Source of the DNA: Zanthoxylum bungeanum
Taxonomy: Eukaryota; Streptophyta; Magnoliopsida; Sapindales; Rutaceae
Length of the DNA: 64,000 nt
Assembly: GCA_019454045.1 (NCBI GenBank)
Contig: SKCR01015060.1
Coordinates: 24,194 to 88,193, forward strand
Direction: 5' to 3'
Part shown: piece by piece, positions 15,904 to 43,746 of the stretch
How the letters are laid out: each line of letters starts with the position of its first letter
Position numbering within the stretch: the stretch's first letter is position 1
Program-made: the position numbers and the translations under genes
The notes under the pieces: model-generated
Told to the model about the DNA's origin: nothing
Database searches by the model: none
Seen by the model: only the letters and a program-made list of their open reading frames with translations

Positions 15904-16212
15904 GTTACTGTAGGCATTGCATGTTTGCATGTGAAACCCGATGATGAGCCTCATTTGGAGGCACTATCTCTTAAGTCGCGGAAATCGCGGGAAACGGACG
16001 TCGGAAGGGAAGAGTCAAGAATTGACGGTTTTGATTTAGTTCACGTGTTTAGCTTCGGGTTCGCTGTTGGATCTCCGTTTTAAAAACTTAACCTTAGCCC
16101 AAGCCCATTAAATCACATCCAAAGAAATAATTAATATATGTCACAAATCAAAATAATTAAAACATTTAAAATATATGTCACAAATTTTAAATTAAATTCA
16201 CAAACTAATTAA

Positions 16213-16676: not shown

Positions 16677-16679
16677 TAT

Positions 16680-22420: not shown

Positions 22421-22554
22421 CAGTAAGCGAACCACGCGCACCGACACGCTCCACGCTCCCCACTCTCGTCTGAAGGTTGAAGACGCTGACTCAGCCGCCA
22501 CGTCAGCGTCCAGTCAGCGCCACGTCAACAGACCCTGCACAGTCAGCAACCCAG
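22421..22554. other. Unclassified GC-richer fragment (right part)
   Basis: Continuation of 20564-20763 beyond the solo LTR. It is rich in CACGTC/CAGTCAGC repeats (GCCACGTCAGCGTCCAGTC and GCGCCACGTCAAC). No gene or element end is recognised. It forms the left flank (CCCAG) of element E2. Confidence 0.5.
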
Positions 22555-24576
22555 TGATGAGTGGTAAATCTATCACTATTTCCCACTCATTTAACCTAAT
22601 ATTTTGTATAGTTTCTTGAGTTTTGTGAATATTTTGATGTGTTTTGTGTTATTTTGTAGATAAATAAAGTTTCAGGACATTTTGGAAGTGATTTGGAGCA
22701 AAACCAGATAAATTGGCAAAAATAAGGTCCGGCGTCGCGACGCTCAACCATTCAACATCGCGACGCCCAGCGTGCGCCGTCAACGCTAACATACGCCGGT
22801 CAACGGTCAACAATTTGAGAAGTTTGACTTTGCTAATGTGCGCCGTGCCACGTGTCACCATCAGAGCCGATCTGCTAACATGCGTCGTGCCACATGTCAT
22901 CATCCTATGGTGCCGACAATCACCATCGCCACGTGTCGCAATCCTACGGTGTCGACAATCGCAATCGCCACGTGTCGCCACATCACCGCCACGTCACCAT
23001 GACATCATCAATGACATCAGCACAATCATTGAGTTATCCGGATAAGATTTTGACCGACGAATCAAAGAGTGACATGTGTCACTGTTCCAGCGTCGCGACG
23101 CTGAAGCCTTGAGCGTCGCGACGCTGGCCACCTATTTTAGCCTATAAATAGAGCTTCAGACTTCAGTTTCAGATGTACCTTCCTCTCTGAATTCTCTGAT
23201 ATAAATAGGGAGTTTTCTATCTAGTTTCTTTTATTTACAATTTTGTAATAGTAATAGTAATTTCATTTTGTAATAATAGTACTTTTACTATTTGAATAGT
23301 AATATTAATTTATTTTTACTATTTACTTTTTACAGTTTTACTATTCAACCATGTGGAGGTAACTTCCCCCTGCCAAGGTGAAAGGTAATTCTTTTACTAT
23401 TACTATTTAGATTAATCTCCCTTAGACATAACATATTCACTTTATAAAATTGGACTTACTGAGGATACCGTTATATTGGTCGGTTGGCTATCTATTATAA
23501 ACCGGATTAAACCTGACTTAACAAGGATACCACTATATTGGTCGATTGGCTATTTAAAATTCCCTTACCGCCTATATGGTAGGTTCATGGACAAATTTTA
23601 CCGCCTTTATGGCTGGTCAGATTTAATTTGACTTAATCAGGTTACCGCCTATATGGCCGGTTGGTTTTAATCTCACAAGTGAATATGTTATATTAAGGGA
23701 GATATCTAAGTTAGTAATTAGTAAAAGTAATTCCTTTTATCTTGGCATTTTATTTTCAATTACTTTTCCGCCTTTTTATTTTATCGCATTTACTTTTCAG
23801 GATTTATTTTATGTCTTTTAAGTTTTTATTAGCCCTAGCTATGTGTCGTAACTAAGTTAGTTATCTAGGTTTGTGATGAATTTCAATATCACGGTTTTAT
23901 AAGGAGTTAGACTATAGTTTGGGTAATGTAAAGATTTATTTATTGAGTCTTAATCTTAATGCTTTTTATTAACTGGCCATTAATAAAATTGATTTGGTAA
24001 ACTTAAAATGAACTAGACATACGGATTTTAAGTTTAAGACCTTAGACTCAATAGCCCACGATCTTCCTTGAGGATAGATAACCCTTTAATAGATTTCCTT
24101 ACAGGATAGGAATATACCTGTTGGGCGGGGGTAGCCATAATAAGAACTTAATCTTAATGAATCCATATAATTTGGTTGACATATGAATATGGTTCAATTG
24201 GGTTAAAATGGGTATTTGTAACTGACCATCGGAAGAGGCTTTTACATAAATTAGTGTTTCAGGTTAATAAATCATATATTACCCAACTATAGGATAACCA
24301 CTTCATCTTTTAAATAATATTGGAATAAATCACAACCTGGATAGTTTTTAATAATTTGGAATTTTCTTCAATCTACTTACATAAGTTTATTTTTATGTTT
24401 TTAAATTTAGAATCATCACATTTTCCCAATCATATCAAACAAACTGTTAGATACCAGTAATCATTTGACCCATTAAATTAATAAATTAAGGTTTTAAGTC
24501 CTCGTGGGATCGATACTTTTTATACTACTTGAACGATACGTGCGCTTGAGTTATACGCGTGTGTAAGCACCGGTCA
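22555..24576 (+). mobile_element. 5' LTR of element E2 (Athila-like Gypsy)
   Basis: A 2.02-kb LTR from TGATGAGTGG to CACCGGTCA, followed after six bases by the PBS. U3 (about 22725-23130) carries several CCACGTGTC or CACGTGTC motifs and four GCGTCGCGACGC-type palindromes (22731, 22753, 23090 and 23109). TATAAATA is at 23143-23150, so transcription would start near 23175. Hairpin array units are at 23467-23664. The E2 3' LTR is missing. Confidence 0.9.
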
Positions 24577-24582
24577 AGTTTT

Positions 24583-24600
24583 TGGCGCCGTTGCCGGGGA
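24583..24600 (+). promoter_or_regulatory. Primer-binding site, tRNA-Asp, of element E2
   Basis: TGGCGCCGTTGCCGGGGA is exactly complementary to the last 18 bases (including CCA) of plant tRNA-Asp(GTC). It lies six bases after the LTR end. tRNA-Asp priming is typical of Athila and related Gypsy elements. Confidence 0.93.
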
Positions 24601-24709
24601 CTTAGTTATCTTTTACTATTAGTTTACGGGTTAGATTTGTTACTTGTATTTAATTTTTCTTTTTACTTACTGTTTTTGTTTTCACTTGTTTCAGGTTCTG
24701 AGACACTTA

Positions 24710-26293
24710 ATGGGACGAACTAGAAGCTTTGAAATTCGACCCTGAGATTGAAATAACCATCAGACAGTTGAGAAGGGAAAGACGTGAAGGTCAAGAAGCA
24801 ATTGTCAACATGGAACCTGAACCTTTGGAGGTTGCACCACCAATTCCCATTCGATACAGAACTATTCCAGTGGTAGATGGCCTCATTTCATATATTGTAC
24901 TTCCTCCCTTACCAGAAAATGCGGGTGAGATCAAAACATGCATCCAAATGATTCAGCAATCAGTTCAATTTGGGGGGAATACAACTGAAGATCCTAATGC
25001 CCACATCAGCAACTTTCTGGAAGTTTGCGGCACTTTCAATTACAACCAAGGAGCTGAAGAAGCTATGAGATTGCGAGTTTTTCCATATTCCTTGAAAGAC
25101 AGAGCTAAGTCTTGGCTACATTCACTACCAGCAGGTTCCATCACAACTTGGAACACTCTAGCCACTAAATTCCTTGTAAAATACTTTCCACCGGCCAGAA
25201 CTGCAAAGTTGAGGAATGACATCACATCCTTCTTGCAGCAAGATTCGGAATCCCTTTGCGAAGCTTGGGAAAGATTCAAGGATTTGCTTCGGAAATGTCC
25301 TCACAATGAAATTACAAAATGGCTACAAGTCCAAACCTTCTACAATGGACTTTCTGGAATAATGAGAACCACAATTGATCCTGCTGCTGGAGGAGCACTA
25401 ATGGCAAAAGGAGAAGATCGGGCTTAGGACCTAATTGAAGAAATAGCCAATAACAATTCTTTGTGGCCAACAGAAAGGAGCATGATCCAAAGAATCGCAG
25501 TAATTTATGAAGTTGGAGCCAACACAGCACTGAATGCCAAGCTGGATATGATTTGCAAAAATTTGGAAACTCTTAACATGAAGGTTAATGGTGGATCCAC
25601 AAGTTCATCATATGGAGGAGCACCAAAACTAGTTCAGCAAGAAGAGACGGTGAACTATGTCAATAATTTCAACAGACAGGGAAACAATCCATATTCCAAC
25701 ACCTACAACCCTGGGTGGAGGAATCATCCCAATTTTTCATGGAGCAACAATTCAGGCAAAAGAACAACCCACCACCTGGATTCCAGCAACAGAACTATCC
25801 ACCATCTAGATTCCACCAGCAGAACAAAGGCCATGAGCATGAAAAAGAACCAGAAATGAAAGAATGGTTTGCAGAGATGTTCAAAAAGCAAGAAGCAAAA
25901 TACGATGCTATGATACAAAACCAATCAGCTTCTATCAAAGCACTGGAGAATCAGATGGGTCAACTGGCCAATGCTCAGAGTTACAGACCGCTAGGAAATC
26001 TTCCCAGTAACACAGAACCAAATCCAATGAACCGAAGGAAGGAGCAATGTCAAGCCATCATCTTGAAAAGCGGTACTGAGATCAATAAAGATGTTGGAAT
26101 CAAGGCATCCAAAGAAGAAGTTCCAAAAGAAGCAGAGCAACAGATGGAGGAACCAGAAGCAAAAGAAAAAGAACAGATAACTCCACCTCCACCTTTTCCT
26201 CAGCGTCTTCAGAAAAACAAACTGGACAAACAGTTTGCTCGATTCCTAGAGGTGTTCAAAAAGCTGCACATCAACATCCCATTTGCATAAGCC
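24710..26293 (+). pseudogene. gag: E2 gag (Athila-type, degenerate)
   Basis: Structural polyprotein of a Ty3/Gypsy element, which would form the virus-like particle. The ATG at 24710 opens MGRTRSFEIRP, which runs into a stop after a small deletion, so the longest frame effectively starts at 24729. The Retrotrans_gag domain is clear at about 24950-25400: RVFPYSLKDRAKSWLHSLP, TTWNTLATKFLVKYFPP, AKLRNDITSF, LCEAWERFKDLLRKCP and LQVQTFYNGLSG. A stop at about 25426 (RA-stop-DLIEE) and frame changes near 25720 break the rest, which includes an Asn/Gln/Pro-rich stretch and a coiled-coil-like block (ALENQMGQLANAQSY). It is closely related to the reversed gag of element F. Confidence 0.9.
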
Positions 26294-26302
26294 TTCGAAG
26301 AA

Positions 26303-26765
26303 ATGCCCAGCTATGTCAAATTCATGAAAGACATTCTTTCACGAAAACAGAGACTGGGAGATTACGAGACAGTAGCATTGATGGAGGAATACAGTGCCAT
26401 CATTCAGAGGAAACTTCCCCCGAAGTTGAAAGATCTTGGCAGTTTCACAGTCTCGTGCACCATTGGAGAACATTATGTCGGTAAGGCTTTATGTGATTTA
26501 GGTGCTAGTGTTAACTTAATGCCTTTTTCTATTTACAGGAAACTGCAAATTGGAGAAGCAATGCCTACCTCAGTTTCACTACAACTTGCTGATAGAACGC
26601 TCGCGTTTCCGAGAGGAGTTGTTGAAGATGTGCTAGTCAAAGTTGATAAACTTATTCTCCCAGCAGATTTCATCATTCTAGACATGGAAGAAGACAAAGA
26701 TGTGCCTATCATCCTTGGGAGACCATTCTTGGCCACAGGACGAACTGTAATTGATGAAAAAGAGG
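26303..26765 (+). pseudogene. E2 aspartic protease, then truncation
   Basis: Retropepsin-like domain with the active site in CDLGASVNLMPFSIYRKL, the flap-region LADRTLAFPRGVVEDVLVKV and the C-terminal hydrophobic ILGRPFLATGR. The domain itself is open and its catalytic DLGA is intact, so it is the best preserved part of E2. It is cut at about 26765 after VIDEK. The following 29 bases (26766-26794) are a displaced scrap of gag (GWEMYKDLL, as in F gag near 33110-33145), and the reversed LTR of F starts straight after. Reverse transcriptase, RNase H and integrase are absent. Confidence 0.88.
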
Positions 26766-26794
26766 AAGGTTGGGAAATGTACAAAGATTTACTC
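26766..26794 (+). other. Gag-derived filler at the E2/F junction
   Basis: About 29 bases reading GWEMYKDLL. They match the gag coding sequence of F (reverse strand near 33110-33145) but are not at that place in the element. The filler lies between the E2 protease and the F LTR. Such templated filler is typical of end-joining repair. Confidence 0.65.
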
Positions 26795-28832
26795 TGATGT
26801 TTACACACGCGTATAACGCAAGCGCACGTATCGTTCAAGTAGTATAAAAGTATCGATCCCACGAGGACTTAATACCTTAATTTATTAATTTAATGGGTCC
26901 AAATGATTACTGGTATCTAACAGTTTTTTTGATATGATTGGAAAAGGTGATGATTCTAAATTTAAAAACATATAAATAAAATTTGCGTAAGTAGATTGAA
27001 GAAAATCCAAATTTTTATAAAAACTTTCCAGGGTTGTGATTTATTCCAATATTATTTAAAAGATGGAGTGGTTATCATATAGTTGGGTAATATATTGATT
27101 TATTAACTTGGAACACTAAATTATGTAAAAGCCTCTTCTGATGGTCAATTACAAATACCCAGTATAACCCAATTGAACCATATTCCTATGTCAACCACAT
27201 TATCTGGATTCATTAAGATTAAGTTCCAATTATGGCTACCCCCGCCCGACAAGTATATTCCTATCCTGTAAGGAAATCTATTAAAGGGTTATCTATCCTC
27301 AAGAAAGATCGTGGGCAATTGAGTCTAAGGTCTTAAACTTAAAATCTCTATGTCTAGTTCATTTTAAGTTTACCAAATCAATTTTATTAATGGCCAGTTA
27401 ATAAAAAGTATTAAGATTAAGACTCAATAAATAAATCTTTACATTACCCAAACTATAGTCTAACCCCTTATAAAACTGTGATATTAAAATTCATCACAAC
27501 CCTAGATAACTGACTTAGTTACGACACATAACTAGGGCTAATGAAAACTTAAAAGACATAAAGTAAAAATGCTGAAAAGTAAATGTGATAAAGTAAAGGC
27601 GGAAAAGTAAATGAAAATAAACTGCTAAGGTAAAAGGAATTACTTTTACTATTTACTAACTTAGATATCTCCCTTAATATAACATAATCACTTGTGAGAT
27701 TAAAACCAACCAGCCATATAAGCGGTAACCTGATTAAGTCAAATTAAGTCCAACCAGCCATAAAGGCGGTAAAATTTGTCCATGAACCTGCCATATAGGC
27801 GGTAAGGAAATTTAAATAGCCAACCGACCAATATAGCGGTATCCTTTTTTAGTCAGGTTTAATCCAGTTTAATTTAAATAGCCAACCGACCAATATAGCG
27901 GTATCCTCATTAAGTCCAATTTTAAATAGTGAATATATTATATTTAAGGGAGATTAATCTAAATAGTAAGAGTAAAAGAATTACCTTTCACCTTGGCAGG
28001 GGGAAGTTACCTCCTCATGGCTGGATAGTAAAACTGTAAAAGATAAAAAGTAAAAATAAATTACTATTACTATTCAAATAGTAAAAGTACTATTTTTACA
28101 AAATGAAATTACAATTACTATTACAAAACTGTAAATAAAAGAAATTAGGTAGAAAACTCATTATTTACATCAGAGAATTCAGAGATGAAGGTACATTAGA
28201 AACTGAAATTTGAAGCTCTATTTAGAGGCGCGGATAGGTGTCCAGCATCGCGACGTGGCGATGAAGTGGCGACACGTGGTGAAAGTTATTTGCGACACGT
28301 GGCGACACGTGGCATGATGTGATTGGCTGATGATGACGTGGCACTTTAACTTGGTCAACTGTTGACGTGGATGATGACGTGTCATGACACGTGGCAAAGT
28401 TGACTTGCTGACGTGTCTGATGATGTGGCGACACGTAGGATGACACATGGCACACGTGACGATGGTGATTGTCGGCACCGTAGGATGATGACACATGGCA
28501 CGGCGTATGTTAGCAGATCGGCTCTGATGGTGACACGTGGCACGGCGCACATTAGCAAAGTCAAACTTCTCAAATTCTGACCCGTTGACCGGCGTACGTT
28601 AGCATTGACAGCGCACGCTGGGCGTCGCGACGCTGAAGACTTAGGCATCGCGACGCCGGCCCCTTTTTTGCCAATTTTTCCAGTTTTGTTCCAAATCACC
28701 TCCAGAATGTCCTGAAACTTTATTTATCTACAAAATAACACAAAACACATCAAAATATTCACAAAACTCAAGAAACTATACAAAATATTAGGTAAAATGA
28801 GTGGGAAATAGTGATGGATTTACCACTCATCA
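26795..28832 (-). mobile_element. 3' LTR of element F (Athila-like Gypsy)
   Basis: A 2.04-kb LTR in reverse orientation. On the plus strand it runs from TGATGTTTACACACG to CCACTCATCA. U3 (about 28230-28640) is rich in CACGTGTC/GACACGTGG motifs. The TATA position reads CTAAATAG near 28216, a mutated TATA box. The hairpin array is at 27708-27906. With the E2 5' LTR it forms a 2-kb inverted repeat around a 2.2-kb centre. The left flank (TACTC) does not match the flank of F at the right (GCAGC). Confidence 0.9.
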
Positions 28833-29840
28833 CACCCCCAAACCTAACATTTTGCTAGTCCTCGAGCAAAACATAGAATAAAATAACATAATTAAAATTT
28901 AACTAAGCCACTTTCGTAGGGATCACAGTTGCATTTAGCATATGCAACAAGCCTTAAACCCCTAGGTGTCCCTAGTGGACGAGTTGTAGTCTTGTGAGTG
29001 CTTACAGTAATGATCCCCACAAACATTTTACAAAAATAAAAATGTAGTGAAACTAATGCACACAAAAGCAAAAAGACAAGAGAAAATAGAATAAAGAAGT
29101 TAGTGACTAATCAGGTGAAACTTCTACTACAAGTTACTAGTTGTTTTGTTTCTTTCTAAATTACCAAATAAGTATATTCTCCGATTATTTTTACCATTCT
29201 CCATATACACAACTAACAAAGTATTATTCAACTCATTTTTGCCCACAACAGTCACAAGTGTAGTTGATAAGAAGGTAATATATTTGTCATAAAGTTTTAT
29301 CAGAATTCACACCTTTTTATAATGATGGAATAATTTTTTCTGATTTTTTCTTTGATTTTTGATTTTGACTTTTATTTATATACAATACCTTCCGTCTATG
29401 TAGCGAGCTTTGAGTCGGTAGCTCCCAAACCAGTTGGCTTTAGGGCACCAGGTGTTAAGACACCCCTACGGACTTAATTACCCAGACTTTAGATATATAT
29501 ATTTTTTACACAGCATCTTCGATCCATGTAGCGAGCTTTGGGCCAGTGACTCCCAAACCAGTTAGTTTTAGGGCATTAGGTTTTAAAATACCCTTACAGA
29601 CTTAATAACTCGGATCTCAGACGTTTTTTTTTTACTCCATCACTTTTTGAGATGATTTCTCCAATTAAACAAGAGCACTGAATATTACAATCTTTTCAAT
29701 TACAGCATCATGTCTGTATGTTACTATGCATGTTGATAATACCTACCAACTAAGCATAAGAAGATTCATTTTAGTCAGTTTTATGGAGAATTAACAAATT
29801 AAGTAATTTAAAAGGAAATAAACAAAAATTAACTTTTTCG
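28833..29840 (-). other. PPT and 3' untranslated region of element F
   Basis: The purine tract GTTAGGTTTGGGGGTG (reverse strand, 28833-28848) abuts the LTR, as in element A. The following ~450 bp match 1-480 of the window. Two tandem copies of a ~127-bp unit lie at 29388-29640. No coding sequence is recognised. The region ends near a 40-bp repeat that also occurs on the far side of the LOG-like gene. Confidence 0.75.
29388..29640. repeat. Tandem duplication, ~127 bp unit, in 3'UTR of F
   Basis: Copy 1 begins at about 29388 and copy 2 at about 29515. Shared blocks include ATGTAGCGAGCTTTG, ACTCCCAAACCAGTT / GCTCCCAAACCAGTT and ACGGACTTAAT / ACAGACTTAAT. The copies differ at many positions, mostly transitions. 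Confidence 0.85.
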
Positions 29841-29856
29841 AAATAGGTTTGAGATA

Positions 29857-29896
29857 CGTCTCAGGAGTGGAAACTCCTTACACAGCTATCTCTCAC
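29857..29896. repeat. Direct repeat flanking the LOG-like gene (3' side of gene)
   Basis: CGTCTCAGGAGTGGAAACTC followed by CTTACACAGCTATC. The counterpart at 30821-30856 reads CGTCTCAGGAATTTATTCC then TTACTCAGCCATCAC, in the same orientation. Each copy contains a small inverted repeat (AGGAGT/ACTCCT; AGGAAT/ATTCCT). Together they bracket the captured gene. Confidence 0.6.
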
Positions 29897-29913
29897 CAAT
29901 TCCACCTTTTTAG

Positions 29914-30546
29914 TCAACATAAAGACACAAAAATGCAAAATATTTTTGTAATTTTTGAAAAAATTTCAATTTTTTTTGGATTTTTCTTTGCTAGGATTTT
30001 GTCAATCAATTCTTCGGCTTTTCTTACAGTTAAGAATATTTCCTTTACTGGTTTCGAAATGAGCCCAAGTTTGTTAGCATCTGCAAGAAATACGAAAAGA
30101 AAATCGAAAAATTCATCCACATTAAGTAATCCAATGGGTTTCTGGTGGATGTTCAAATTTGCCCAAGATGCTACTGTGAATATTTCTTCCAACATGCCTA
30201 GCCCGCCAGGTAAAGCAATGAAGGCGTCAACGTGATTGATCATTTCAATGAGTTGTTTAGACATATCTGAGACAATGCATTCTTCTCCTTTTGAATCTCC
30301 GATGAGGCCTGTCTCTGCTAATGGTTTTGGAATGATCCCCAAAACATGGATGCCACCTTCTTGCACGGCTTTTGAAATACATCCCATTAATCCAAGATTG
30401 TCACCTCCATATACTAAGTGCATGTTCCGTTCAGCAATAATTCTCCCCAATTCCTTTGCGGCCTCCATATATTCTAGCTTGCTCCCAGAATTAGATCCAC
30501 AAAACACACAGATATGAGTAACTCATCTCTTGGAAATTGTTTCCAT
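29914..30546 (-). pseudogene. LOG-like: LOG-like cytokinin phosphoribohydrolase gene captured in element F (pseudogene)
   Basis: LOG enzymes release active cytokinin bases from cytokinin riboside 5'-monophosphates in the cytosol. The ATG at 30546 opens a 210-codon frame of normal family length. Fold motifs are ICVFCGSNSGSK (residues 12-23), LVYGGDNLGLMGCIS (44-58), GIIPKPLAETGLIG, DAFIALPGGLGMLEEIF (107-123), WANLNIHQKPIGLLNVD and AEELIDKIL. Codon 8 is TGA (30523-30525). The usual motif PGGxGTxxE has Met for Thr (118), and the catalytic Arg expected before it (D-M-x-x-R) is Gln98. The Glu pair 120-121 remains. Plant LOG genes have several introns and this frame has none. It lies on the same strand as F, between the integrase end (31102) and the PPT, where Athila elements may carry an env-like frame. 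Confidence 0.9.
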
Positions 30547-30574
30547 TTTTCTCTTATCTGAATTTTTATCTCGA

Positions 30575-30625
30575 TGTGTAGAAGAGAAGTCTAACGAGAT
30601 GAATTTATAGATCCTGAAAAGGGTG
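30575..30625 (-). promoter_or_regulatory. Possible TATA promoter of the LOG-like gene
   Basis: On the reverse strand GGATCTATAAATTC lies at about 30601-30614, some 55-60 bases before the ATG, with a CT-rich stretch CTTCTCTTCTACAC after it. Spacing fits a TATA box with a start near 30575 and a short leader. If real, the gene was captured with promoter DNA and not only as mRNA. Confidence 0.35.
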
Positions 30626-30820
30626 AGTAATAATTGCACTAGTATCTGTCAAATGACAATTATTAGAATAACGTTAAAATAAATCATGAAAAGTCAAAAA
30701 GTATAAATCTTGTCGGTGAAAATAAAGATAATAACAAAAGAAAAGCAAATCAAAACAATAATTAAGGTAACAGAATTGTGTACGCAATACTTCACTCGTT
30801 AGTATAAATTCATCAGGATG

Positions 30821-30856
30821 CGTCTCAGGAATTTATTCCTTACTCAGCCATCACAA
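30821..30856. repeat. Direct repeat flanking the LOG-like gene (5' side of gene)
   Basis: CGTCTCAGGAATTTATTCC then TTACTCAGCCATCAC, matching 29857-29896 in the same orientation at roughly three quarters of positions by eye. It could be the scar of the capture event or an older repeat of the element. Confidence 0.6.
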
Positions 30857-31101
30857 ATGAATTAGCTCTCGTCATTGTGATTGCCAAACATCATTCCTCC
30901 TTAAATGCTCCGTTTATGCCTTTCCCTACAAAAATAACACACAAAATTAAAAATCCTACAACATGTATACACAAAACATGAAAATAAAAATTACAACAAA
31001 TTACATAGGTTGCCTCTCTGCTAGTGCTAAATTTAACATCTTCAGCCAGACGTGACTGCCCAATTATTATGCTGGATCTGAAAGTGTGACACTTTCTTTT
31101 T

Positions 31102-31609
31102 GTTACTCAAATGATTCTCCCCAGTAGTGCTTGACAAGCTTGTTTTTTACCTTGAAAGTTTTGTTGGAGTCGGGATCATGTATCTCAAAGGCTCTGTCTG
31201 GTAAAACCTTGGTGATTAAGAATGGACCTGATCATCGTGATTTTGGCTTCCAATGGAAGAATTTCACCCTTGATTTGTTTAACAGTACCTTCTGCCCTGG
31301 TTCCAGTTGTATGCGCACAGATTTCTCATCATGTCTTTTCCTGGCATTTTCTTTGTACAATTTGGCATTCTCAAAAGGCTGAATGTGAAATTCCTCCAAT
31401 TTGTTGAACTGGTGGAACTGTTTCTCTTTTGTTTCTTGTAGTTCAAGAATATGTGTCTTTAGTGCACAATAATTTTTATCTTCAGGCTCCACAGGTAATT
31501 TTTTAAGTTTGTCAGTAGAACTTTGTTTTGCATCAGAGTTCTGGATGGTACTGTGTATCACATCAAGTCTGAAACATTCCTCATTCTTTTCATCATCTGG
31601 GAAATTCAT
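31102..31609 (-). pseudogene. Element F integrase C-terminal tail
   Basis: Only the last part of the pol polyprotein survives. It shows ELQETKEKQFHQFNKLEE, LYKENARKRHDEK, LEPGQKVLLNKSRVKFF, WKPKSR, a stop in place of Trp, then SGPFLITKVLPDRAFEIHD and a terminal KLVKHYWGESFE before TAA at 31102-31104. This is the usual C-terminal DNA-binding domain of Athila/Tat integrases. It follows the protease directly: about 3 kb for reverse transcriptase, RNase H and the DDE core is missing. The join lies between 31570 and 31634, after MNFPDDEKNEE, a stretch I cannot place with certainty. Confidence 0.85.
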
Positions 31610-31633
31610 GGCTTTGAAAACTTTGAATGTTAC

Positions 31634-33715
31634 TTATTGGTCTTTTACCCTCATGGTTAGTTCTCCTTTCTGTACATCAATGATGGTTCGACCAGTAGCC
31701 AAAAAGGGTCTCCCGAGAATTATCGGCACATCTGCGTCTTCCTCCATATCGAGGACAATAAAATCAACTGGGAAAATGAATTTGTCAGCTTTGACCAGCA
31801 CATCTTCAACTACACCTCTCGAAAATACGAGTGTTCTATCAACAAGTTGTAGAGAAACTGAGGTAGGCATTGTTTCTCTAATCTGCAGTTTCCTGAAAAT
31901 AGAAAAAGGCATCAAGTTAACACTCGCACCTAAATCACATAAAGCCTTACCAAAGTTGTGTTCTCCTATGATGCAAGGAATGGTGAAACTGCCAGGGTCT
32001 TTCAACTTTGGAGGGAAGCTTCCTCTGGATGATAGCGCTATATTCTTCTGATAATGCTATTGTCTCATAATCTCTCAATCTCCGCTTTCGTGAGAGGATA
32101 TCTTTCATGAATTTGACATAACTGGGCATTTATTCCAACGCTTCTGCAAATGGAATGTTGATGTGCAGTTTTTTGAAGATCTCCAGAAATCGAGTAAACT
32201 GCTTGTCCAATTTGTTTTTCTGAAGACACTAAGGAAAAGGTGGAGGTGGAGTGATCTGTTCTTTTTCCTTTGCTTCTTTTTCCTCCATCCGTTGCTCTGC
32301 TTCTTTTGGAACTTCTTTAATTGCTGCTTTGATTCCAACATCTTTGTTGATTTCAGTACCGATTTTCAATATGATGGCATTACATTGTTCATTCTCTTGG
32401 TTCCTTGGATTTGTTTCTGTGTTGCTGGGAAGGGTACCTAGCGGTTTGTAACTCTGAGCATTGGCCAGTTGTCCAATATGATTCTCCAGTGCTTTAATAG
32501 AAGTTGATTGGCTTTGAAACATGGCTTCATATCTTTTCAACTGAGCTAGCACTTCTGCCATTACTGGTTCTTTTTCATGCTCCTGACCTTTATTCTGTTG
32601 TTGGAATCCAGGTGGTGGATAGTTCTGCTGTTGAAATCTAGGTGGTGGATTGTTCTTCTGCCCTGAATTATTGCTCCATGAAAAGTTGGGATGATTCCTC
32701 CACTCTGGGTTATAGGTGTTGGAATATGGATTGTTCCCCTGTCTATTGAAATTGTTGATAAAATTTACCGTCTCTTCAGGTTGGGTTGGCTGTGGTGTTC
32801 CTCCATATGTTGAACTAGTGGTTCCGATGTTGCTTGTGTGCTGAGAGTTTCCATGAATTTACAAATCTGATCGAGCTTGGCACTGACTGCTATATTAGCT
32901 CCAACTTCATATAGTCCTGCAATTCTCTGGATCATGCTTCTTTCTGTTGGCCATAAGGAATTGTTGTTGGTCATTTCTTCGATTAGGTCACAGGCTTGAT
33001 CTTCACCTTTTGCCATTAGCGCTCCTCCAGCAGCAGCATCAATTGTGGTTCTCATCAGTCCAGAAAGTCCATTATAGAAAGTTTGGACTTGAAGCCATCT
33101 TGGAATCTCATGGTGAGGACATTTCCGGAGCAAATCTTTGTACATTTCCCAACCTTCGTAGAGAGTCTCTGAATCATGTTGTACAAAATATGTGATGTCA
33201 TTCCTCAGTTTTTCTGTTCTAGCTGGTGGAAAGTACTTTGCAAGGAATTTGGTGGCTAAAGTGTTCCAAGTTGTGATGGAACCTGCTGGTAGTGACTGTA
33301 GCTAAGCCTTAGCTCTGTCTTTCAAGAAATATGAAAAAACCCGCAGTTTCATTGCTTCTTCAGCTCCTCGGTTGTAATTGAAAGTGCCGCAAACTTCCAG
33401 GAAGTTGCTGATGTGGGCATTAGGATCTTCAGTTGCATTCCCCCCAAACTGAACTGATTGTTGAATCATCTGAATGCAAGTTTTGATGTCAACCGCATTT
33501 GCTGGTAAGGGAGGAAGTACAATACATGAAATGAGTTTGTCAACCACCGGAATGGTTCTGTCTCAAATGGGAATTGGTGGTGCAACCTCCAAAGGTTCAG
33601 GTTCCATGTTAACAATTGCTTATTGGCCTTCTCGCCTTCCCATTCTCAACTGTTTGATGGTTCTTTCAATCTCTCGGTCAAGCGGACGAATTTCAAAGCT
33701 TCCGGTTCGTCTCAT
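31634..33715 (-). pseudogene. gag: Element F gag-protease (degenerate)
   Basis: Reverse-strand counterpart of the E2 gag-protease. The ATG at 33715 opens MRRTGSFEIRPLDREIERT, an undamaged version of the E2 start. Gag blocks include IKTCIQMIQQSVQFGGN, YFLKDRAKA-stop-LQSLPAGS, LLRKCPHHEIPRWLQVQ, ALENHIGQLANAQSY. The protease has CDLGASVNLMPFSIFRKL and VPIILGRPFLATGR, open and with its active site intact, and closes at 31634. Stops in gag near 33604 (CAA to TAA), 33561 (CGA to TGA) and 33301 (TGG to TAG) are all transitions. A frameshift or two lie near 32760 and 32560. No working Gag can be made from this copy. Confidence 0.9.
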
Positions 33716-33824: not shown

Positions 33825-33842
33825 TCCCCGACAATGGCACCA
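33825..33842 (-). promoter_or_regulatory. Primer-binding site, tRNA-Asp, of element F (decayed)
   Basis: On the reverse strand TGGTGCCATTGTCGGGGA sits six bases from the LTR end. It differs from the exact tRNA-Asp complement seen in E2 at three positions, all C/T or G/A. Confidence 0.88.
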
Positions 33843-33848
33843 AAAACT

Positions 33849-34250
33849 TGACCGGTGCTTACACACACGTATAACGCAAGCACACGTATCGTTCAAGTAG
33901 TATAAAAAAGTATCGATCCCACGAGGACTTAATACCTTAATTTTATTAATTTAATGGGTCCAAATGATTACTGATATCTAATGGTTTGTTTGATATTATT
34001 GGAAAAATGTGATGATTCTAAATTTAAAAACATATAAATAAAATTTGTGTAAGTAGATTGAAGAAAATCTAAATTTTTATAAAAACTATCCAGGGTTGTG
34101 ATTTATTCCAATATTATTTAAAAGATGAAGTGGTTATCATATAGTTGGGTAATATATTGATTTATAACCTGGAACACTAAATTATGTAAAATCATCTTCC
34201 GATGGTCAATTACAAATACCCAGTATAACACAATTGAACTATATTCCTAT
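33849..34250 (-). mobile_element. 5' LTR of element F, distal part (U5 side)
   Basis: End part of the F 5' LTR, running from TGACCGGTGCTTACACAC up to the target duplication CCTAT (34246-34250) of the Copia element inserted in it. It continues at 43747-45524. Confidence 0.9.
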
Positions 34251-36631
34251 TGTTGGGGTTGGTGCTCAGAGCGCCAATTCCCAGTTGTATTTCTATGAGA
34301 ATACTTCTGTAAAACATTAATATTAGTAATAATATATGCAGTTTCTATAATATAATCTATTTTTTATATGGTAAAGACGTAATGACCCTGGAATGATTAG
34401 TCATGGTACAGTTGCAAAAGCGTCGCAACTGACATTGAGTAGTATCATGACGTTGTCATTCTTAGATTGTTCCTGGTCAAGGTTTACACTACTTGGTCAG
34501 TAAAGTAAACCCGTTGAGACCGGTACATGTCGTATACTAGAATATATGATTCCAATGGTTTCTCAATGAACCATAAGTCTTGGAGACTAGTATAGACGTG
34601 TAGGTATTTATAGCGGATAAACACTGAACGAACTCACCGAAGATTCTTAATAGATGGCACACAGCGTCAGTAAGAATCTTCTCGGGTTGAGTAGCACTTG
34701 TGATTCTTAGACTTGAGATGCCATTGTAGGCACATGAGATATATTCTACACTTAGATGGCATTCACGTCACCGATCTATTTATTTCAGACCTCTGCCTGT
34801 TCGTTGGGTGTAGATAGATCCTCAGGGTGTCCTATGAGTATCAAGATAGGATCCGTCAGTTCTGTGTACCAGAGCATAGGTAGTCCATATGATTAGCAAT
34901 CAGATAAAACCATGGGCCCGTGGTAAAGTTTAGAAGCTAGTTCTAAACATTCTTTTAGAGATTGCTAATGGAATAGTCGACTGGATAATCCTCATAGAGA
35001 TTTGACGTTTACATCTATATATCTGGGATTTATCCGGATACCTGTTACGGAGGAATTATACATTTGCCATGACCTCGACCTGTATGATTCAGCGAGATTA
35101 TCATGATCGTCATAATCTATGGGTGGATAGATTATGGACACGAAATTGGATTTCGTGACGGATATACCTGAATCTAGAGAGTCTCAATAATGAAACATAC
35201 TCGTAGAGCACTAGAGCAACATTAATAAATAATATTGATTATTTATAAAGTCGTTTAAAGGTTAAACGCAAGATACGTGCTAAAGAGACTAGATAGTCAT
35301 TTGCTTAATTATTGTGTATTTACATTTAATACTTGATTAATTTAAATACACATTAATTAATAGTCAAAATGAGTTATTTGACTTATATCCTAAATGAATA
35401 TATGTTTTTAATATTTAATGTAAATATTATACATATATTTAATATATTTGTATTTGATTATTTAATTGTTAAATGATTAAATTAATTAAAATATAAATAT
35501 CTAACTTTAGGATATATTAAGTAAATGATGTTAGTTGCAATTGTTGACTTAAATAAATATCAATAAAGTAGTTTTAGATATTTATATTAAGATAACAAAT
35601 GCATTTGTAATGAAAAACCTATAATTTCATGCCTTGTGAATTCGGCCAAGGCCAATTATGCATGAGTATATATTGTTTTCATTTGCTTTTCATTTAGTTA
35701 ACCTAATACACTTTACTAAAATAACTCCATTGAAGAAACTTGAAGAAGCTTTGAGAAAGAAAGATTAATCAAGAGAAATCTTGGAATTTTAGTAAGTTTT
35801 TCCAACTTGCTATTAGAAAGGAAAATGTTCCTAAGGTTCTAGGCTATATCATATGATGTTCTTAGATTATTTATTTCTTTATTTCTTTGTGTTTTTGTTG
35901 ATGGAAATTTTTGTGAAGGTGTAAGCATGTATGATGAATGAAGTTTGTGACTAATGTAGTTGTAAACATTCTTTTGAGGTTTTAGAAACCATGTTGCTAA
36001 TCTAGAGTTGTTGACCCCACTCTTTATGACCTAGATTTGATCTTGAGTGTTTCATTGTGTTGAGACTTGGATTGGATGGAAGAATGATGATTGAAACATT
36101 TGATTTAACCAATTTGGTCTAATTTGTCCAATTTGATGAAATTGAAAAATTAGGGTTCATGACGAATTCCAATTTGGGGATTTTCATATAAGTTGTGCAT
36201 TGGGTTGTTATATGATGCACATAAAGTTTCATGTTGATTGGATTACATTTGGATGTGTTTTGAAGCATGAAATGACAAATGGTACATTTTGGCACCTTAA
36301 GGTGCATTCGGCCTTGATGATGATTTTTTTGGTTTTTTGTTGCTTTTGGTGTTTTGATGTTTTGAACATGTTAAGTTCATCTTACAAATGATTTAGAATC
36401 ATTCAAATTGATTGGATCATTTCGGACTAAAATGGACAAAATACCAATAGAAGGGCAATTTGGTAAATTCACTTGAATATGATTCATTTGATTTATATTT
36501 CATAATTTGATTATTGGATAATTAAATAAATGTGTTTATTTAATTAATCTGAGAAAAATTTTTGAAATCGGAAAATTTTGATTTTCCCGCTTCCGCTGCG
36601 TTACCGGATTTAGCCCCTAAAAACCCCTACA
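34251..36631 (+). mobile_element. 5' LTR of Copia I
   Basis: Runs from TGTTGGGGTTGGTGC to AACCCCTACA, 2381 bp, unusually long for a Copia LTR. The right half carries a leader-like sequence and the conserved end TTACCGGATTTAGCCCC. Confidence 0.93.
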
Positions 36632-36634
36632 AAA

Positions 36635-36648
36635 TGTATCAGAGCGAG
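36635..36648 (+). promoter_or_regulatory. Primer-binding site of Copia I, initiator tRNA-Met
   Basis: TGTATCAGAGCGAG is close to TGGTATCAGAGC, the complement of the plant initiator tRNA-Met 3' end, with one G missing. It lies just after the 5' LTR. Confidence 0.75.
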
Positions 36649-37390
36649 TCTGATTCTAGGCCACCTAATATGACTAGTCATTCTTGAATCAATGTTTAAT
36701 CATGTATTCTTGCCTTTATGCATGCTTATTAGGATCTAAACTGGTTAGATTCAGGGTGTATGACACTTAGCGGAAAATCTCTGATTAATAAGGTTTGAGT
36801 GTAGTTATGTATTGATGCATGTTACATGGTCCGTCTTGTCAATCCGGTTTATGAATACTTCTTTGTGACTACATCCGAGACCGTGCGTCTGCTGTGAGGG
36901 TGTAGCCGATAAAGATTTATTTATACCGGATGTATATCAGATACTAGATAAATTCAAGCGAAAGCGGAATTCTGAACGTGCCCTAGCTATCAGGATTACG
37001 TAAGTAACTTGAGTTTATCATTGACGAGTTTAACCTTGGTACGTCTCCTTGTGGGCCTGCCTCCGCAGCGACAACGAGAAACGGCCAGGACCGGAAACTT
37101 AGGAGTCACTATTGAGTGATTGACAAATGAGTTGTCTACCTGATGAATATATGTAGGCGAGACCGTGCCTCTACTGTGAGCTGAAATATATTCACGGGAT
37201 CCACCTTTCACTAATAGTATTTAATTTAATTATTAAATATTTGTATTTTGTTTGGGGATTACAGTATTGCATGATTTAGTGGGAGAGGCATATTAGATTA
37301 AAAAACCATGATCTAGTTTATGCTTTTGATATTATATGAAACTGCTTATTTCTGCTAACCGTGTTTCGTGATCTATATGATAGATTTGCG

Positions 37391-38238
37391 ATGGCAGTAC
37401 AATCCACAAATCAGTTTGCGCGTATGCTTGATGCGAACAAACTAAAAGGCGGCGGGAGAACTTCACTGACTGGGAATTGGATTTGAGGATTGTCCTCGAT
37501 TCGAGAAGCTGAGTTATGTTCTTGAGGGTCCGTTGCCCCTTACTGTGGGTGAGGATGCTACGGAGGAGGAACGCTGAGTTTATGAAACTTGGAAGGATGA
37601 TGATTTAAGGGTTAAATCGTACATCCTCAGTTCGCTGTCTCCGAAGCTCAAGCAACAGTACTATGGTATGTCAGATTCCTATAGTATGATGACACGATTA
37701 AGACAATCGTTTGAGAACCAAGAACAAGTGATTGTTCACAAGGTCACCATGGAACTGTTCCATACGCGTCTGGATGAGGGGCAAAGTGTTAGCCCTCATG
37801 TTCTTCAGATGATCGATTTGATCGATCAATTGAGGCAACATAATCTCATCCTAAATGACATTCTCGGTAGGAGTGTCATTCTTGGTTCGCTACCAGCTTC
37901 ATTCCGCCAATTTGTGATGTACTTTAACATGCATGGGACTATCTGTACCTACCAGGAGCTACATAGGATGTTGCTCACGGCAGAAGATGACCTTAAGAAG
38001 GGAAAGCCGACTCGCCCTCCTAGATCTACTTCTCTTTCTGCTTCTTCCCAATGATGGTCCAAGGGAAAAAACAAGAAAGGCAAGAAGAAGAAGAAGAAGG
38101 TTTTTGGTCCTCAACAGCAGGCAAAGATTGCGAAGCCCAATAGGGCTTCTGAAGACAAATGCCACCACTGCGGCAAAGTCGGGCATTGGAAGAGGAATTT
38201 TCCTGATTACATCGCCCAACTGAGGAGAGACAAATCAT
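37391..38238 (+). pseudogene. gag: Copia I gag (degenerate)
   Basis: The ATG at 37391 opens MAVQSTNQFARMLDANKL. The frame is lost near 37445, again near 37505 and at a stop near 37575 (CGA to TGA in an EEER-VYETW context), then is open from 37668. UBN2-type gag features include VLEGPLPLTVGED, YETWKDDDLRVK, YILSSLSPKLKQQYYGM, TRLRQSFENQ and LHRMLLTAEDDLKKGK. A basic stretch leads to a zinc knuckle CHHCGKVGHWKRN whose fourth ligand Cys is replaced by Phe (near 38200). Both the frameshifts and the lost zinc ligand would stop RNA packaging. Confidence 0.88.
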
Positions 38239-38279
38239 CTACATCAGGTACTTTTATTTTTCCAGTTATTGATTTATCT

Positions 38280-41200
38280 TTGGCTTGTGAAGCCGTTACT
38301 TCCAGCTGGATTTTATATTCTGCTTGTCCTATTCACATTTGCAATTCGTTGCAGGTGCTGAAGGAAAGTAGAAGGCTGAAGCCTGGAGAGATGCAGTTGC
38401 GATTCGGGAGTGGAGACTCTATGGATGCAGTTGTAGTTGGAGTTTGCGAGGTCTCATTGCCGAATGGGACACTTTTGTTGCATGACTGTCATTTTGTACT
38501 GGGATGTGTCGCAAATATTATATCACTTTTTGTATTGGATACAGAAGGATTTTGTATGAATATTAAGAATAGTTCTTGGTATTTATATGATAGAAATAAT
38601 ATTGAGATCCTTTGTTGTCCAAACCAGCATGGTCATTATACATTGCAAACTTCTAAAGATATATTAAATACCGGAGTTAATAAACGTTGTTTACCTGTAA
38701 TTAATAATACTGAACTTTGGCATATGAGGCTTGGTCACATTGGCGTTAGACGCCTTACTCAATTGGTTAGGAATGGTTTGATACCAGATCTTACCATTGA
38801 ATCCTATCCAACTTGTGAATCCTGTATTCAGGGTAAAATGACCAAAGCCCCATTTTCTGGTGTTGGACACCGTGCCACTAACTTACTGGAGCTCGTACAT
38901 TCTGATGTATGTGGTCCACTAAGTCAGACCGCTCACAGTGGTTATTCGTACTTCGTTACCTTTACCGATGATTTGTCACGGTACGGTTATGTCTATTTGA
39001 TGTGACATAAATCGGACTCCTTTGAAAAGTTCAAAGAGTTCCGAAATGAAGTAGAAAAACAAACTGGTAAATATATTAAATGCCTTCGATCTGATCGAGG
39101 CGGAGAATATATGAGTGGTGAGTTTATGGATTATATGAAGGAGAATGGGATTCTCGCTTAATATACTCCTCCAGGTACCCCACAACACAATGGAGTATCT
39201 GAGAGGAGAAATCAGACTTTATTGGATATGGTCCGATCGATGTTGAGTTTCGTAGATTTGCCCTATTACTTATGAGGCTACTCTCTCTTAACAGCCACAC
39301 ATCTTTTGAATAAGATTCCTTCAAAGGCTGTTCCTACGACACCGTATGAGATATGGTTCGGTGGGAGACCAAATCTTAATTATATTAAGGTTTGGGGTTG
39401 TCCTACCTATGTCAGGGTGACTCAGCAAAATAAGCTTTCGCCTCGAGGGCAAAAGTTTAGGTTTGTTGGATACCCCTCAAATACGAGGGGATATCTGTTC
39501 TATGATACCGAGCATCGAAATGTGTTCGTAGCTCGCTTCGCAAAATTTCTAGAACTAGAATTTTTGTCAGAAGGTGGTAATCATATACAGGTTGAGCTTG
39601 ATGAAGTCCAACCTGAAAACAACGAGCCAACGAAGGAACCTGAAGTTCAAGTTGATGAAGGACCTTCAACAACCACACTACGTAGGTCGCAAAGGGTATC
39701 TAGACCTCCTGAACGCTTGTATTTGATACAAGAAAAGAGTCTGGATGTTCTCTTAGTTGAAGAGACTGATCTTTTCACTTATAGAGAATCGATGTTGGAC
39801 ATCGACTCCGTGAAATGGCAAGGTGCCATGAAATCCGAAATGGACTCAATGCATGAGAATCAAGTTTGGGACTTGGTTCCGCTTCCTGAAGGAATTGTTT
39901 CTATCTATTGTAAATGGGTTTACAAGAGGAAGCGAGGGCCTGAAGGTAAGGTTGAAACTTACAAGGCCCGACTGGTAGCAAAAGGTTACACGCAGCGACC
40001 TGGCGTCGACTACGATGAAACTTTTTCACCAGTTGCAATGCTTAAGTCTATTCGGATTTTGCTTGCTATAGCTGCGTATCATGACTACGAAATTTGGCAA
40101 ATGGATGTCAAAACGGCTTTTCTAAATGGATTTCTTGATGAAGAAATCTATGGAACACCAGAAGGTTTTGCGTCCAGCGAAAACTCGGGCATGGTATGCA
40201 AGCTTAAGAAGTCCATTTATGGACTTAAACAAGCTTCACGAAGTTGGAATCTTCAATTCGACGAGATTATTAGATCGTCTTTTTTCTCAAGAATTGGAAG
40301 AATCATGTGTGTATCAGAAGGCCAGTGGGAGCATGGTCGTATTTTTAGTCCTATATGTTGCTGACATCCTAATCATTGGGAATGATTTAGGATGTTACAG
40401 AGCGTCAAAGCGTATCTGTGTAAGAATTTCTCCATGAGGGACCTGGGAGAAGCTTCCTATGTTTTAGGGATAAAACTCTATAGAGATAGACAAATGAGGC
40501 TGATTGGGTTATCCCAATCAACGTACATAGATAAGATCTTGGAACGGTACAGTTTTGGTAACTGTAAGACAGCAAACATACCGTTCAGACATGGGATTCA
40601 TCTTTCAAAGAAGATGTGTCCACAAACAGAAGATGAGAAGGTTAGAATGTCTAACCAACCTTATGCTTCGTGTTTGGGTAGTATAATGTATGCTATGTTG
40701 TGTACAAGGCCTGATATCAGTTTCGCTGTGAGCGTAACTAGTAGATATCAGTCCAATCCAGGTAATGACCATTGGATGGCCATTAAACATATCCTAAAGT
40801 ATCTTAAAGGTACTAAGGATAAGTTGATTATTTATGAAGGAAATGAACTGCAAGTTAATGGGTATACAGACTCCGATTTCCAATCGGATCCCGATGATAG
40901 AAAGTCTACATCTGGATATGTCTTTACTCTTAACGGAGGTGCAGTTTGTTGGAAAAGTTCCAAACAGGATCTACAGCTGATTCCACCACTGAGGCGGAAT
41001 ATATTACAGCTTCTGAAGCCGCAAAAGAGGCTGTGTGGGTAAAGAACTTTATCACAGAATTGGGAGTTGTCCCAAGTATCGAGAATGCGATTCCGTTATA
41101 CTGTGATAATACTGGAGCCATTGCGCAAGCAAAGGAACCAAGGGCGCATCAGAAGTCGAAGCATGTGGAATAAAGTACCACATCATTCGAGAGATTGTGT

Positions 41201-41335
41201 TGCGAGGGGATATTGTCGTGTGCAAGGTACCAAGTGAAGATAATGTAGCAGACCCGCTTACGAAGGCCATACCTCCGAAGTTGTTTGACAAACACGTGGA
41301 GTCGATGGGTATTAGATACAATCGTTATTGGCACT
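38280..41335 (+). pseudogene. pol: Copia I pol: protease, integrase, RT, RNase H (inactivated)
   Basis: All four domains are present in Copia order. Protease: the usual DSG active site reads YSA (WILYSACPIHIC), so it is dead. Integrase: LWHMRLGHIG and CESCIQGKMTKAPF (zinc finger), VHSDVCGPL, LRSDRGGEY and PQHNGVSERRNQ (DDE residues). Stops lie at 39001 (CGA to TGA), about 39160 (CAA to TAA) and about 39273 (TGG to TGA). RT: KARLVAKGYTQRPGVDYDETF, MDVKTAFLNG, then a frameshift near 40260; the polymerase box reads YVAD (40354-40365) instead of YVDD. RNase H: GYTDSDFQSD, KSTSGYVF, STTEAEYITAS and KSKHVE, with frameshifts near 40970 and a stop at 41171. Confidence 0.92.
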
Positions 41336-41340
41336 AGAGC

Positions 41341-41353
41341 AAGTGGGAGATTT
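41341..41353 (+). promoter_or_regulatory. Polypurine tract of Copia I
   Basis: AAGTGGGAGATTT directly precedes the 3' LTR start TGTTGGGG. It is the usual Copia plus-strand primer. Confidence 0.9.
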
Positions 41354-43741
41354 TGTTGGGGTTGGTGCTCAGAGCGCCAATTCCCGGTTGTATTTATATG
41401 AGAATACTTCTGTAAAACATTATTATTAGTAATAATATATGCAGTTTCTATAATATAATCTATTCTTTTATATGGTAAAGACGTAATGACCCTAGAATGA
41501 TTAGTCATGGTACAGTTGCAAAAGCGTCACAACTGACATTGAGTAGTATCATGACGTTGTCATTCTTAGATTGTTCCTGGTCAAGGTTTACACTACTTGG
41601 TCAGTAAAGTAAACCCGTTGAGACCGGTACATGTCGTATACTGGAATATATGATTCCAATGGTTTCTCAATGAACCATAAGTCTTGGAGACTAGTATAGA
41701 CGTGTAGGTGTTTATAGCGGATAAACACTGAACGACTCACCGAAGATTCTTAATAGATGGTACACCAGCGTCAGTAAGAATCTTCTCGGGTTGAGTAGCA
41801 CTTGTGATTCTTAGACTTGAGATGCCATTGTGGGCACATGAGACATCTTCTACACTTAGATGGCAGTCACGTCACCGATCTATTTAGATCAGACCTCCGC
41901 ATGTTCGTTGGGGGTAGATAGATCCTCAGGGTGTCTTATGAGTATCAAGATAGGATCCGTCAGTTCTGTGTACCAGAGCATAGGTAGTCCATATGATTAG
42001 CAATCAGATAAAACCATGGGCCCGTGGTAAAGTTTAGAAGCTAGTTCTAAACATTCTTTTAGAGATTGCTAATGGAATAGTCGACTGGATAATCCCCATA
42101 GAGATTTGACGTTTACATCTATATCTCTGGGATTTATCCGGATACCTGTTACGGAGGAATTATACATTTGCCATGACCTTGACCTGTATGATTCAGCGAG
42201 ATTATCAGTGATCGTCATAATCTATGGGTGGATAGATTATGGACACGAAATTGGATTTCCTGACGGATATACCTGAATCTATAGAGTCTCAATAATGAAA
42301 CATACTCGTAGAGCACTAGAGCAACATTAATAAATAATATTGATTATTTATAAAGTCGTTTAAATGTTAAACGCAAGATACCTGCTAAAGAGACTAGATA
42401 GTCATTTGCTTAATTATTGTGTATTTACATTTAATACTTGATTAATTTAAATACACATTAATTAATAGTCAAAATGAGTTATTTGACTTATATCCTAAAT
42501 GAATATATGTTTTTAATATTTAATGTAAATATTATACATATATTTAATATATTTGTATTTGATTATTTAATTGTTAAATGATTAAATTAATTAAAATATA
42601 AATATCTAACTTTAGGATATATTAAGTAAATGATGTTAGTTGCAATTGTTGACTTAAATAAATATCAATAAAGTAGTTTTAGATATTTATATTAAGATAA
42701 CAAATGCATTTGTAATGAAAAACCTATAATTTCATGCCTTGTGAATTCGGCCAAGGCCAATTATGCATGAGTATATATTGTTTTCATTTGCTTTTCATTT
42801 AGTTAACCTAATACACTTTACTAAAATAAACTCCATTGAAGAAACTTGAAGAAAGCTTGAGAAAGAAAGATTAATCAAAGAAATCTTGGAATTTTAGTAA
42901 GTTTTTCCAACTTGCTATTAGAAAGGAAAATGTTCCTAAGGTTCTAGGCTATATCATATGATGTTCTTAGATTATTTATTTCTTTATTTCTTTGTGTTTT
43001 TGTTGATGGAAATTTTTGTGAAGGTGTAAAGCATGTATGATGAAGGAAGTTTGTGACTAATGTAGTTGTAAACATTCTTTTGAGGTTTTAGAAACCATGT
43101 TGCTAATCTAGAGTTTTTGACCCACTCTTAGATGACCTAGATTTGATCTTGAGTTGTTTCATTGTGTTGAGACTTGGATTGGATGGAAGAATGATGATTG
43201 AAACATTTGATTTAACCAATTTGGTCTAATTTGTCCAATTTGATGAAATTGAAAAATTAGGGTTCATGAAGAATTCCAAATTTGGGGCTTTTTATATATG
43301 TTGTGCATTTGGGTGTGTATATGATGCACATAAAGTTTCATGTTGATTGGATTACATTTGGATGTGTTTTGAAGCATGAAATGACAAATGGTACATTTTG
43401 GCACCTTAAGGTGCATTCGGCCTTGATGATGATTTTTTGGTTTTTTGTTGCTTTTGGTGTTTTGATGTTTTGAACATGTTAAGTTCATCTTAGAAATGAT
43501 TTAGAATCATTCAAAATTGATTGGATCAATTTCGGACTAAAATGGACAAAATACCAATAGAAGGGCAATTTGGTAAATTCACTTGAATATGATTCATTTG
43601 AATTATATTTCATAATTTGATTATTGGATAATTAAATAAATGTGTTTATTTAATTAATCTGAGAAAAATTTTTGAAATCGGAAAATTTTGATTTTCCCGC
43701 TTCCGCTGCGTTACCGGATTTAGCCCCTAAAAACCCCTACA
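41354..43741 (+). mobile_element. 3' LTR of Copia I
   Basis: 2388 bp with the same ends as the 5' copy. Differences seen include short indels (for example GAACGAACTC versus GAACGACTC) and transitions such as GCGTCGCAAC versus GCGTCACAAC. Confidence 0.93.
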
Positions 43742-43746
43742 CTTAT

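Follow-up and report, generated by a model that had tools for sequence, protein, structure and literature searches.

A decayed LOG-like frame and its relatives in an Athila-like LTR retrotransposon family of Zanthoxylum bungeanum

The window analysed here, 64,000 nucleotides of plant DNA with a GC content of 36% (C15054:24194-88193 in a Zanthoxylum bungeanum assembly of 3,956,113,105 bases and 51,709 contigs), is packed with nested LTR elements, one of which, element F, carries a LOG-like open frame. F lies on the minus strand and reads, 5' to 3', 5' LTR, primer binding site (PBS), gag, protease, integrase C-terminus, LOG-like frame, polypurine tract and 3' LTR. A first-pass annotation made from the letters alone had recorded the order from PBS to 3' LTR on the reverse strand, and Pfam and sequence comparison bear it out, with the integrase and the tRNA assigned putatively; that annotation listed only the 3' LTR, which is real, whereas self-comparison of the window also recovers a 5' LTR, split by a nested copia element.

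Self-comparison placed the 3' LTR (TGATGAG...) at 26798..28832, its ends being set from copies with target duplications; CCGGTCA, the terminal bases of the LTR family, is absent at its outer end. The polypurine tract (28833..28845) lies directly before it and is preceded by a 3' untranslated spacer (28846..29913) that is common to other copies on comparison with genome loci. The LOG-like open frame, 202 amino acids from stop to stop (29914..30522; PF03641/PF18306), adjoins the opening codons of the LOG frame (30523..30546), which include the ATG and, at codon 8, an in-frame stop, and a further spacer, also common to other copies (30547..31104), separates it from a coding remnant at 31105..31633 (frame 31232-31633 plus its continuation), which had no Pfam match and which we take to be an integrase C-terminus by its similarity to Athila-type integrase ends. 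Within the interval 29914..31609, under which the gene was first annotated, the LOG frame is real, but 30547-31609 is integrase C-terminus and spacer rather than LOG. Further upstream are an aspartic protease region (31634..32056; PF13650, E 6e-4, below its cut-off), a gag region broken into frames (32229..33562; PF03732, E 7e-14) and a PBS (33825..33842) with 15 of 18 bases as in the copy on C39993, putatively of the tRNA-Asp type, which we presume to be its match.

The 5' LTR consists by self-comparison of an inner part (33849..34250) and an outer part (43744..45524), parted by a nested Ty1/copia element (34251..43741; RVT_2, gag_pre-integrs) whose own 2.4-kb LTRs (34250-36631 and 41353-43741) are 97.8% identical and whose target duplication, CCTAT/CTTAT, differs at one base. 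The LTR pair of F has piecewise identities of 372/391, 1016/1066 and 502/538 and a K2P distance of 0.058, or about 2 to 4 million years at substitution rates that we assume to be 1.3e-8 and 7e-9. F lacks reverse transcriptase, RNase H and the greater part of its integrase, and no target duplication was found around it (outer flanks TCTGA vs GCAGC). The end of its 3' LTR abuts a related element, E, in the opposite orientation (22554..26797, plus strand; LTR, gag and protease by self-comparison), the two standing head to head at 26797/26798; an inverted junction likewise follows the polypurine tract of the copy on C20169, near 58114 (L095). Two more LTR-like pieces of F's family, in opposite orientations, lie at 496-2288 and 4401-6336, and a second copia fragment (45488-46762; Pol_BBD, gag_pre-integrs), directly beyond the 5' LTR of F, is possibly an insertion target. 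Elsewhere the window holds an exon-like open frame of a likely host gene (56055-56768; DUF1005, PF06219, E 4.5e-78), a 595-amino-acid open frame with no Pfam match at E 0.01 (52113-53897), a minisatellite of 33-bp units with a 58-bp unit at its end (16212-16899) and a tandem array whose periods of 68, 137 and 198 bases are nested (62933-63808).

Paired LTRs, a PBS and a polypurine tract, by which LTR retrotransposons are recognized, are all present in F; candidate Athila traits would be the putative tRNA-Asp PBS and the additional frame that follows pol and precedes the 3' LTR. The reverse transcriptase, RNase H and integrase domains used for Athila phylogeny are missing from F and from both of its collinear copies (C20169 and C31017), and tRNA-Asp is only one among several primers of non-chromoviruses (PMC6317226). 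A Pfam scan of six frames of F gave no match to the Athila ORF-1 domain PF03078, which only 16% of Athila elements have (PMC6317226).

The window frame matches PF03641 (E 8.8e-30) and PF18306 (E 4e-14) in the Pfam scan and, as had been noted, is intronless and lies on the coding strand of the element. It is not full length, as had been supposed: codon 8 after the ATG at 30546 is a stop, a state found in 3 of 59 distinct host-genome loci (the window copy, L046 and L089), and the C-terminus is lost, the last ~25 residues of its relatives having no alignment to it, together with their EAR-like tail. In the numbering of the family protein P0001, the catalytic arginine has become glutamine (R98) and the active-site, phosphate-binding threonine has become methionine (T118), so that PGGLGMLEE stands in place of the motif PGGxGTxxE. 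A full-length, active cytokinin gene is rejected for the window copy in view of the stop, the lost C-terminus, R98Q and T118M.

Host-genome searches with three queries (PF03641, the window frame and the family protein P0007), each scoring 150 of 47,331 to 68,670 loose candidates, yielded 68 fetched loci with flanks of up to 1.5 kb; 59 are distinct, the window copy included as L032, and all are best scorers against protein queries, a choice that favours intact, conserved copies. The frame has no internal stop in 34 of the 59 and has internal stops in the expected frame in 25, and the script misplaced the start in two loci (L044 and L072). The spacer just upstream of the LOG ATG in F is matched in 58 of the 59 and its 3' spacer (28833-29913) in 55, the window copy counted in both; the integrase end is visible in nine, and an LTR match lies within reach in 16, one of them (L070) misplaced. 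Across the 3.96-Gb assembly, a LOG signature in the form of a degenerate nucleotide-binding-loop pattern, which fits 53 of the 59 sampled copies, gave 23,183 exact matches (11,639 + 11,544) and its control 0, a total of places in an assembly that may hold both haplotypes and tandem arrays. The Pfam E-values, these matches set against the empty control and the shared upstream flank exclude chance for the LOG cargo.

Two copies were fetched for a target-duplication test, in which the LTR ends alone were read, and both were positive: at C16700 54392-62255 and C21380 130259-137885, LOG lies between LTR ends of the family (TGATGAG...CCGGTCA) and the unit is bounded by perfect 5-bp duplications, AATTC and GTGTC, respectively. 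LOG copies with different target duplications had been put forward as the proof of transposition; since both duplications are perfect and they differ, the LOG cargo moves with the element, and the earlier claim that the element spread it is supported for the element family. Three further long copies (C39993, C20169 and C31017) are rearranged or truncated. Those on C20169 and C31017 are collinear with F from gag through protease and integrase end to LOG and have the same missing pol, at 86-89% identity, the former with its inverted junction after the polypurine tract and the latter with a truncated 3' LTR. The copy on C39993 lies in an array of LTR-LOG units (L092-L093) whose paired LTRs match at 96% over 975 bases, is without the protease-to-integrase part of F and has extra open frames of 223 and 148 amino acids upstream of LOG, one gag-like by eye, in a region common to other copies of the F subfamily and to four of the A subfamily. 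Counting the reference copy, 23 distinct F-type loci and four of the A type have a different region of 1 kb or more upstream, in which the integrase end is absent.

Coding constraint was assessed on 28 open 217-codon frames hand-picked from the 59 distinct copies (16 of subfamily F, eight of C and four of A), with others left out, some of them open (L042, L044, L055, L057 and L058). Between the F and C subfamilies dN/dS is 0.16 (codon bootstrap 0.10-0.24), and within groups it is 0.25 for F, 0.22 for C and 0.26 for A, values in which the ranking of loci by protein score lowers dN. Divergence between F and C at codon positions 1, 2 and 3 is 0.16, 0.11 and 0.49, against 0.34 in the 115-base 5' flank, and the derived changes fixed in each subfamily comprise 18 synonymous and 12 replacement changes in F (P 5e-5 vs 0.75) and 18 synonymous and 10 replacement changes in C. 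Because dN/dS on the F stem by three-point subtraction (0.17) is too noisy, with a codon bootstrap of 0.06-1.13, we rely on the pairwise values and the fixed changes. The LOG frame of the element family appears to have been kept readable by natural selection in the sampled copies.

In the LOG of C. glutamicum, Arg99, Thr119 and Glu122 stand at the AMP site, and alanine changes there nearly abolish activity (PMC4979012); by spacing, these residues map to R98, T118 and E121 of P0001. The catalytic arginine is kept in 141 of 158 family proteins and Thr118 in 151, and the PGGxGTxxE sites 117, 118, 120 and 121 are kept in 151 to 155. Intact F-type copies have Q98 in 16 of 16 and M118 in 14 of 16; the two substitutions are the usual state of the subfamily to which the window copy belongs, which rules them out as its private decay. 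Genome-wide, the R98-type motif has 17,577 matches, the Q98-type motif 1,074 and the M118-type motif 159, each with a control of 0. The Q98 figure does not measure how large the F subfamily is, because its printed rows mix the Q lineage with R-type contexts altered at the codon. By these counts, most matched copies look equipped at the catalytic arginine and the window copy belongs to a small subfamily that is not. R98Q and T118M can each arise through CpG loss; despite this route, we read Q98 as inherited because R-type copies retain the codon in thousands of places. One sublineage lacks the catalytic arginine, yet its frame stays constrained, and any function there should be non-catalytic.

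A second feature of the family is its C-terminal tail. Among 143 of the 158 family proteins with a usable C-terminus, 111 have a strict LxLxL or DLNx(x)P motif, the EAR consensus being LxLxL/DLNxxP (PMC7446885; PMC9956375), within the last 12 residues, 13 have a relaxed form and 19 have neither, these last including a Xanthoceras type ending in KKRRLA, a KRRRLD type and a number of truncated or unusual C-termini. A basic tract is present in 130 of the 143, and tract and motif are both absent from all seven ordinary host LOGs examined. In 32 representatives below 80% core identity, selected because they carry the tail, entropy is 0.64, 0.20 and 0.53 bits at leucines -5, -3 and -1, compared with 2.06 and 2.49 bits at positions -4 and -2, and frame and tail are retained at core identities down to 44%. 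A structure model of P0001 takes a LOG fold and is matched best by 2a33 (AtLOG3; TM 0.95 by target length), with the tail predicted to be disordered (residues 204-217, pLDDT <50). A database search with the tail alone recovered only its own query, and the breadth of the tail rests on two protein searches.

The protein search scored 7,999 candidates and listed the best 120, of which the first 13, from ENA or JGI contigs, are single-frame proteins of 208 to 253 amino acids at 62-73% identity, except P0005 (52%); some may come from the same plant, as P0001 is almost identical to copies in the host genome. Read-through 5' leaders of P0004, a Q-type protein (3e-7), and of P0002 (5e-6) match the last 93 bases of the upstream spacer (window 30639-30547). 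Named members of the clade among the matches listed are from Xanthoceras, Populus, Diplodiscus and Reevesia, the last with at least 27 locus tags on 13 chromosome labels across two protein searches together, as expected of a dispersed family; matches from Salvia, Acacia, Trapa, Gossypium and Thalictrum have no tail and look like ordinary LOGs. Searches of viral contigs for relatives gave no family members (the one with matches gave 23 loci, all of them distant LOGs at 23-42% identity), and a blackgrass eccDNA with PF03641 (PMC10606437) proved unrelated. In a tree with eight host LOGs as outgroup, 40 family rows fall on one side of a branch (100/100), as do 43 rows in a second tree with 15 own-genome copies, the window copy and six host LOGs (again 100/100); full-tail rows form a subset at 100/99, and the Populus LOGL10 protein P0040, of the R type, shares a clade with the window copy. 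By these sequence trees, with few host LOGs (8 and 6 rows), element LOGs are one clade apart from ordinary plant LOGs.

Taken together, the window frame is probably a degraded copy of an accessory gene that has long been established, under selection, in an Athila-like LTR retrotransposon group. We suggest that a LOG coding sequence without introns was taken up by an ancestor of these elements, at a point after pol and before the 3' LTR; the lack of introns would fit capture through a spliced transcript, and this capture is older than the subfamilies sampled. The gene would then have been copied with the element, split into subfamilies, been selected as an element gene and been retained even in element forms without most of pol. 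An LTR transcript would yield a small LOG-fold protein; in most lineages, where the catalytic arginine is kept, active cytokinin could be released, while the basic, nuclear-type tract and the LxLxL tail could carry the protein into the nucleus and attach it to corepressors of the TOPLESS type, where it might act on host or element chromatin to the benefit of the element. The data show the cargo, its mobility and copy number, the coding constraint in the sampled copies, the conserved tail and the loss of catalytic residues in one sublineage; we infer the nuclear site, the corepressor binding and the benefit.

For most lineages, continued use of LOG catalysis would be about an even call, and binding of the tail to the TOPLESS family, which the motif suggests, would fall a little short of that; ten other LxLxL effectors tested did not bind TOPLESS (PMC7446885), so the motif is no guarantee. 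That most lineages use neither is a still less likely outcome. It is a tentative proposal that the LOG was turned into a nuclear regulator that recruits or titrates TOPLESS through its tail at element or host chromatin, being in some lineages a constrained pseudoenzyme and persisting without most of pol. An equally tentative alternative is a plain mobile cytokinin gene, whose active cytokinin, by driving cells to divide, would give the element more divisions or germ-line access and whose tail would be incidental. The excess of R-type over Q-type matches at the catalytic codon, the near-complete retention of the PGGxGTxxE sites and the modelled LOG fold all speak for it, but the Q98 lineage keeps an open, constrained frame with residues altered whose equivalents in C. 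glutamicum nearly abolish activity when changed to alanine (PMC4979012), and the tail leucines hold while the residues between them vary.

That LOG is a passive passenger, a functionless retrocopy amplified by chance, would account for the stops in 25 of the 59 fetched loci and for the broken window copy; we consider it improbable in view of the codon-position pattern, a dN/dS well under 1 between subfamilies, the 34 open loci and the retention of frame and tail down to 44% core identity. A host LOG subfamily merely sitting among retrotransposons, as the database name LOGL10 for Populus members might suggest, is highly implausible and for this genome is contradicted by the target duplications around LTR-LOG-LTR units, by more than 23,000 sites, by element DNA flanking LOG upstream in 58 of 59 distinct loci and downstream in 55, and by the lack of introns. 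A one-off insertion of LOG into a single element, which the missing target duplication of F might have hinted at, is the least credible reading and is refuted by the further copies in the genome.

On the preferred reading, that of a selected accessory gene of the element, selection has maintained a hormone-activating enzyme within a transposable element that a single assembly holds at over 23,000 sites. This raises the question of whether plant retrotransposons exert control over their hosts through cytokinin or corepressor pathways. Counts of LOG gene families, for example those with Populus 'LOGL10', may include element genes, and the constrained sublineage without the catalytic arginine would help to separate hormone production from any second role.

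LOG capture is not unique to this element, as YgdH/LOG domains have been published for Ty3/gypsy consensuses from Citrus sinensis, Citrus clementina and Populus trichocarpa (Alvarado-Marchena 2022, PMC9289625, which cites Steinbauerova 2011). The likeness to our family is a LOG-type extra domain in plant Ty3/gypsy elements; the two sentences that section 12 of that article spends on it describe neither copy number nor selection, and neither the catalytic state nor a tail nor non-autonomous forms. Searches of the open-licence PMC literature gave this one paper on LOG in Ty3/gypsy elements and, among the articles listed, none on copy numbers of this scale, on the constraint, on the tail or on a constrained sublineage without the catalytic arginine. 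The extra frames of plant Ty3/gypsy elements mostly have no known domain (PMC9289625) and are alike in position and strand, whereas the frame described here has a LOG enzyme fold. Ty3/gypsy elements of Phalaenopsis carry an AlkB-type m6A demethylase (PMC9289625), likewise a host-type enzyme fixed as an element gene, but a different enzyme, with activity demonstrated in vitro. Plant LOG phosphoribohydrolases (AtLOG3, 2a33) share the fold, and the motif in most family proteins; compared with them, the element family is a separate clade (100/100), intronless, has a basic and EAR-like tail and has lost the catalytic arginine in one sublineage. The EAR-motif effector HaRxL21 (PMC7446885) likewise bears a C-terminal LxLxL on a foreign protein, but it is a pathogen effector with demonstrated TOPLESS binding, whereas the LOG is an element gene for which the motif suggests such binding. 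LOG domains in gypsy elements being known, it is the tail and the loss of the catalytic arginine that would surprise a specialist.
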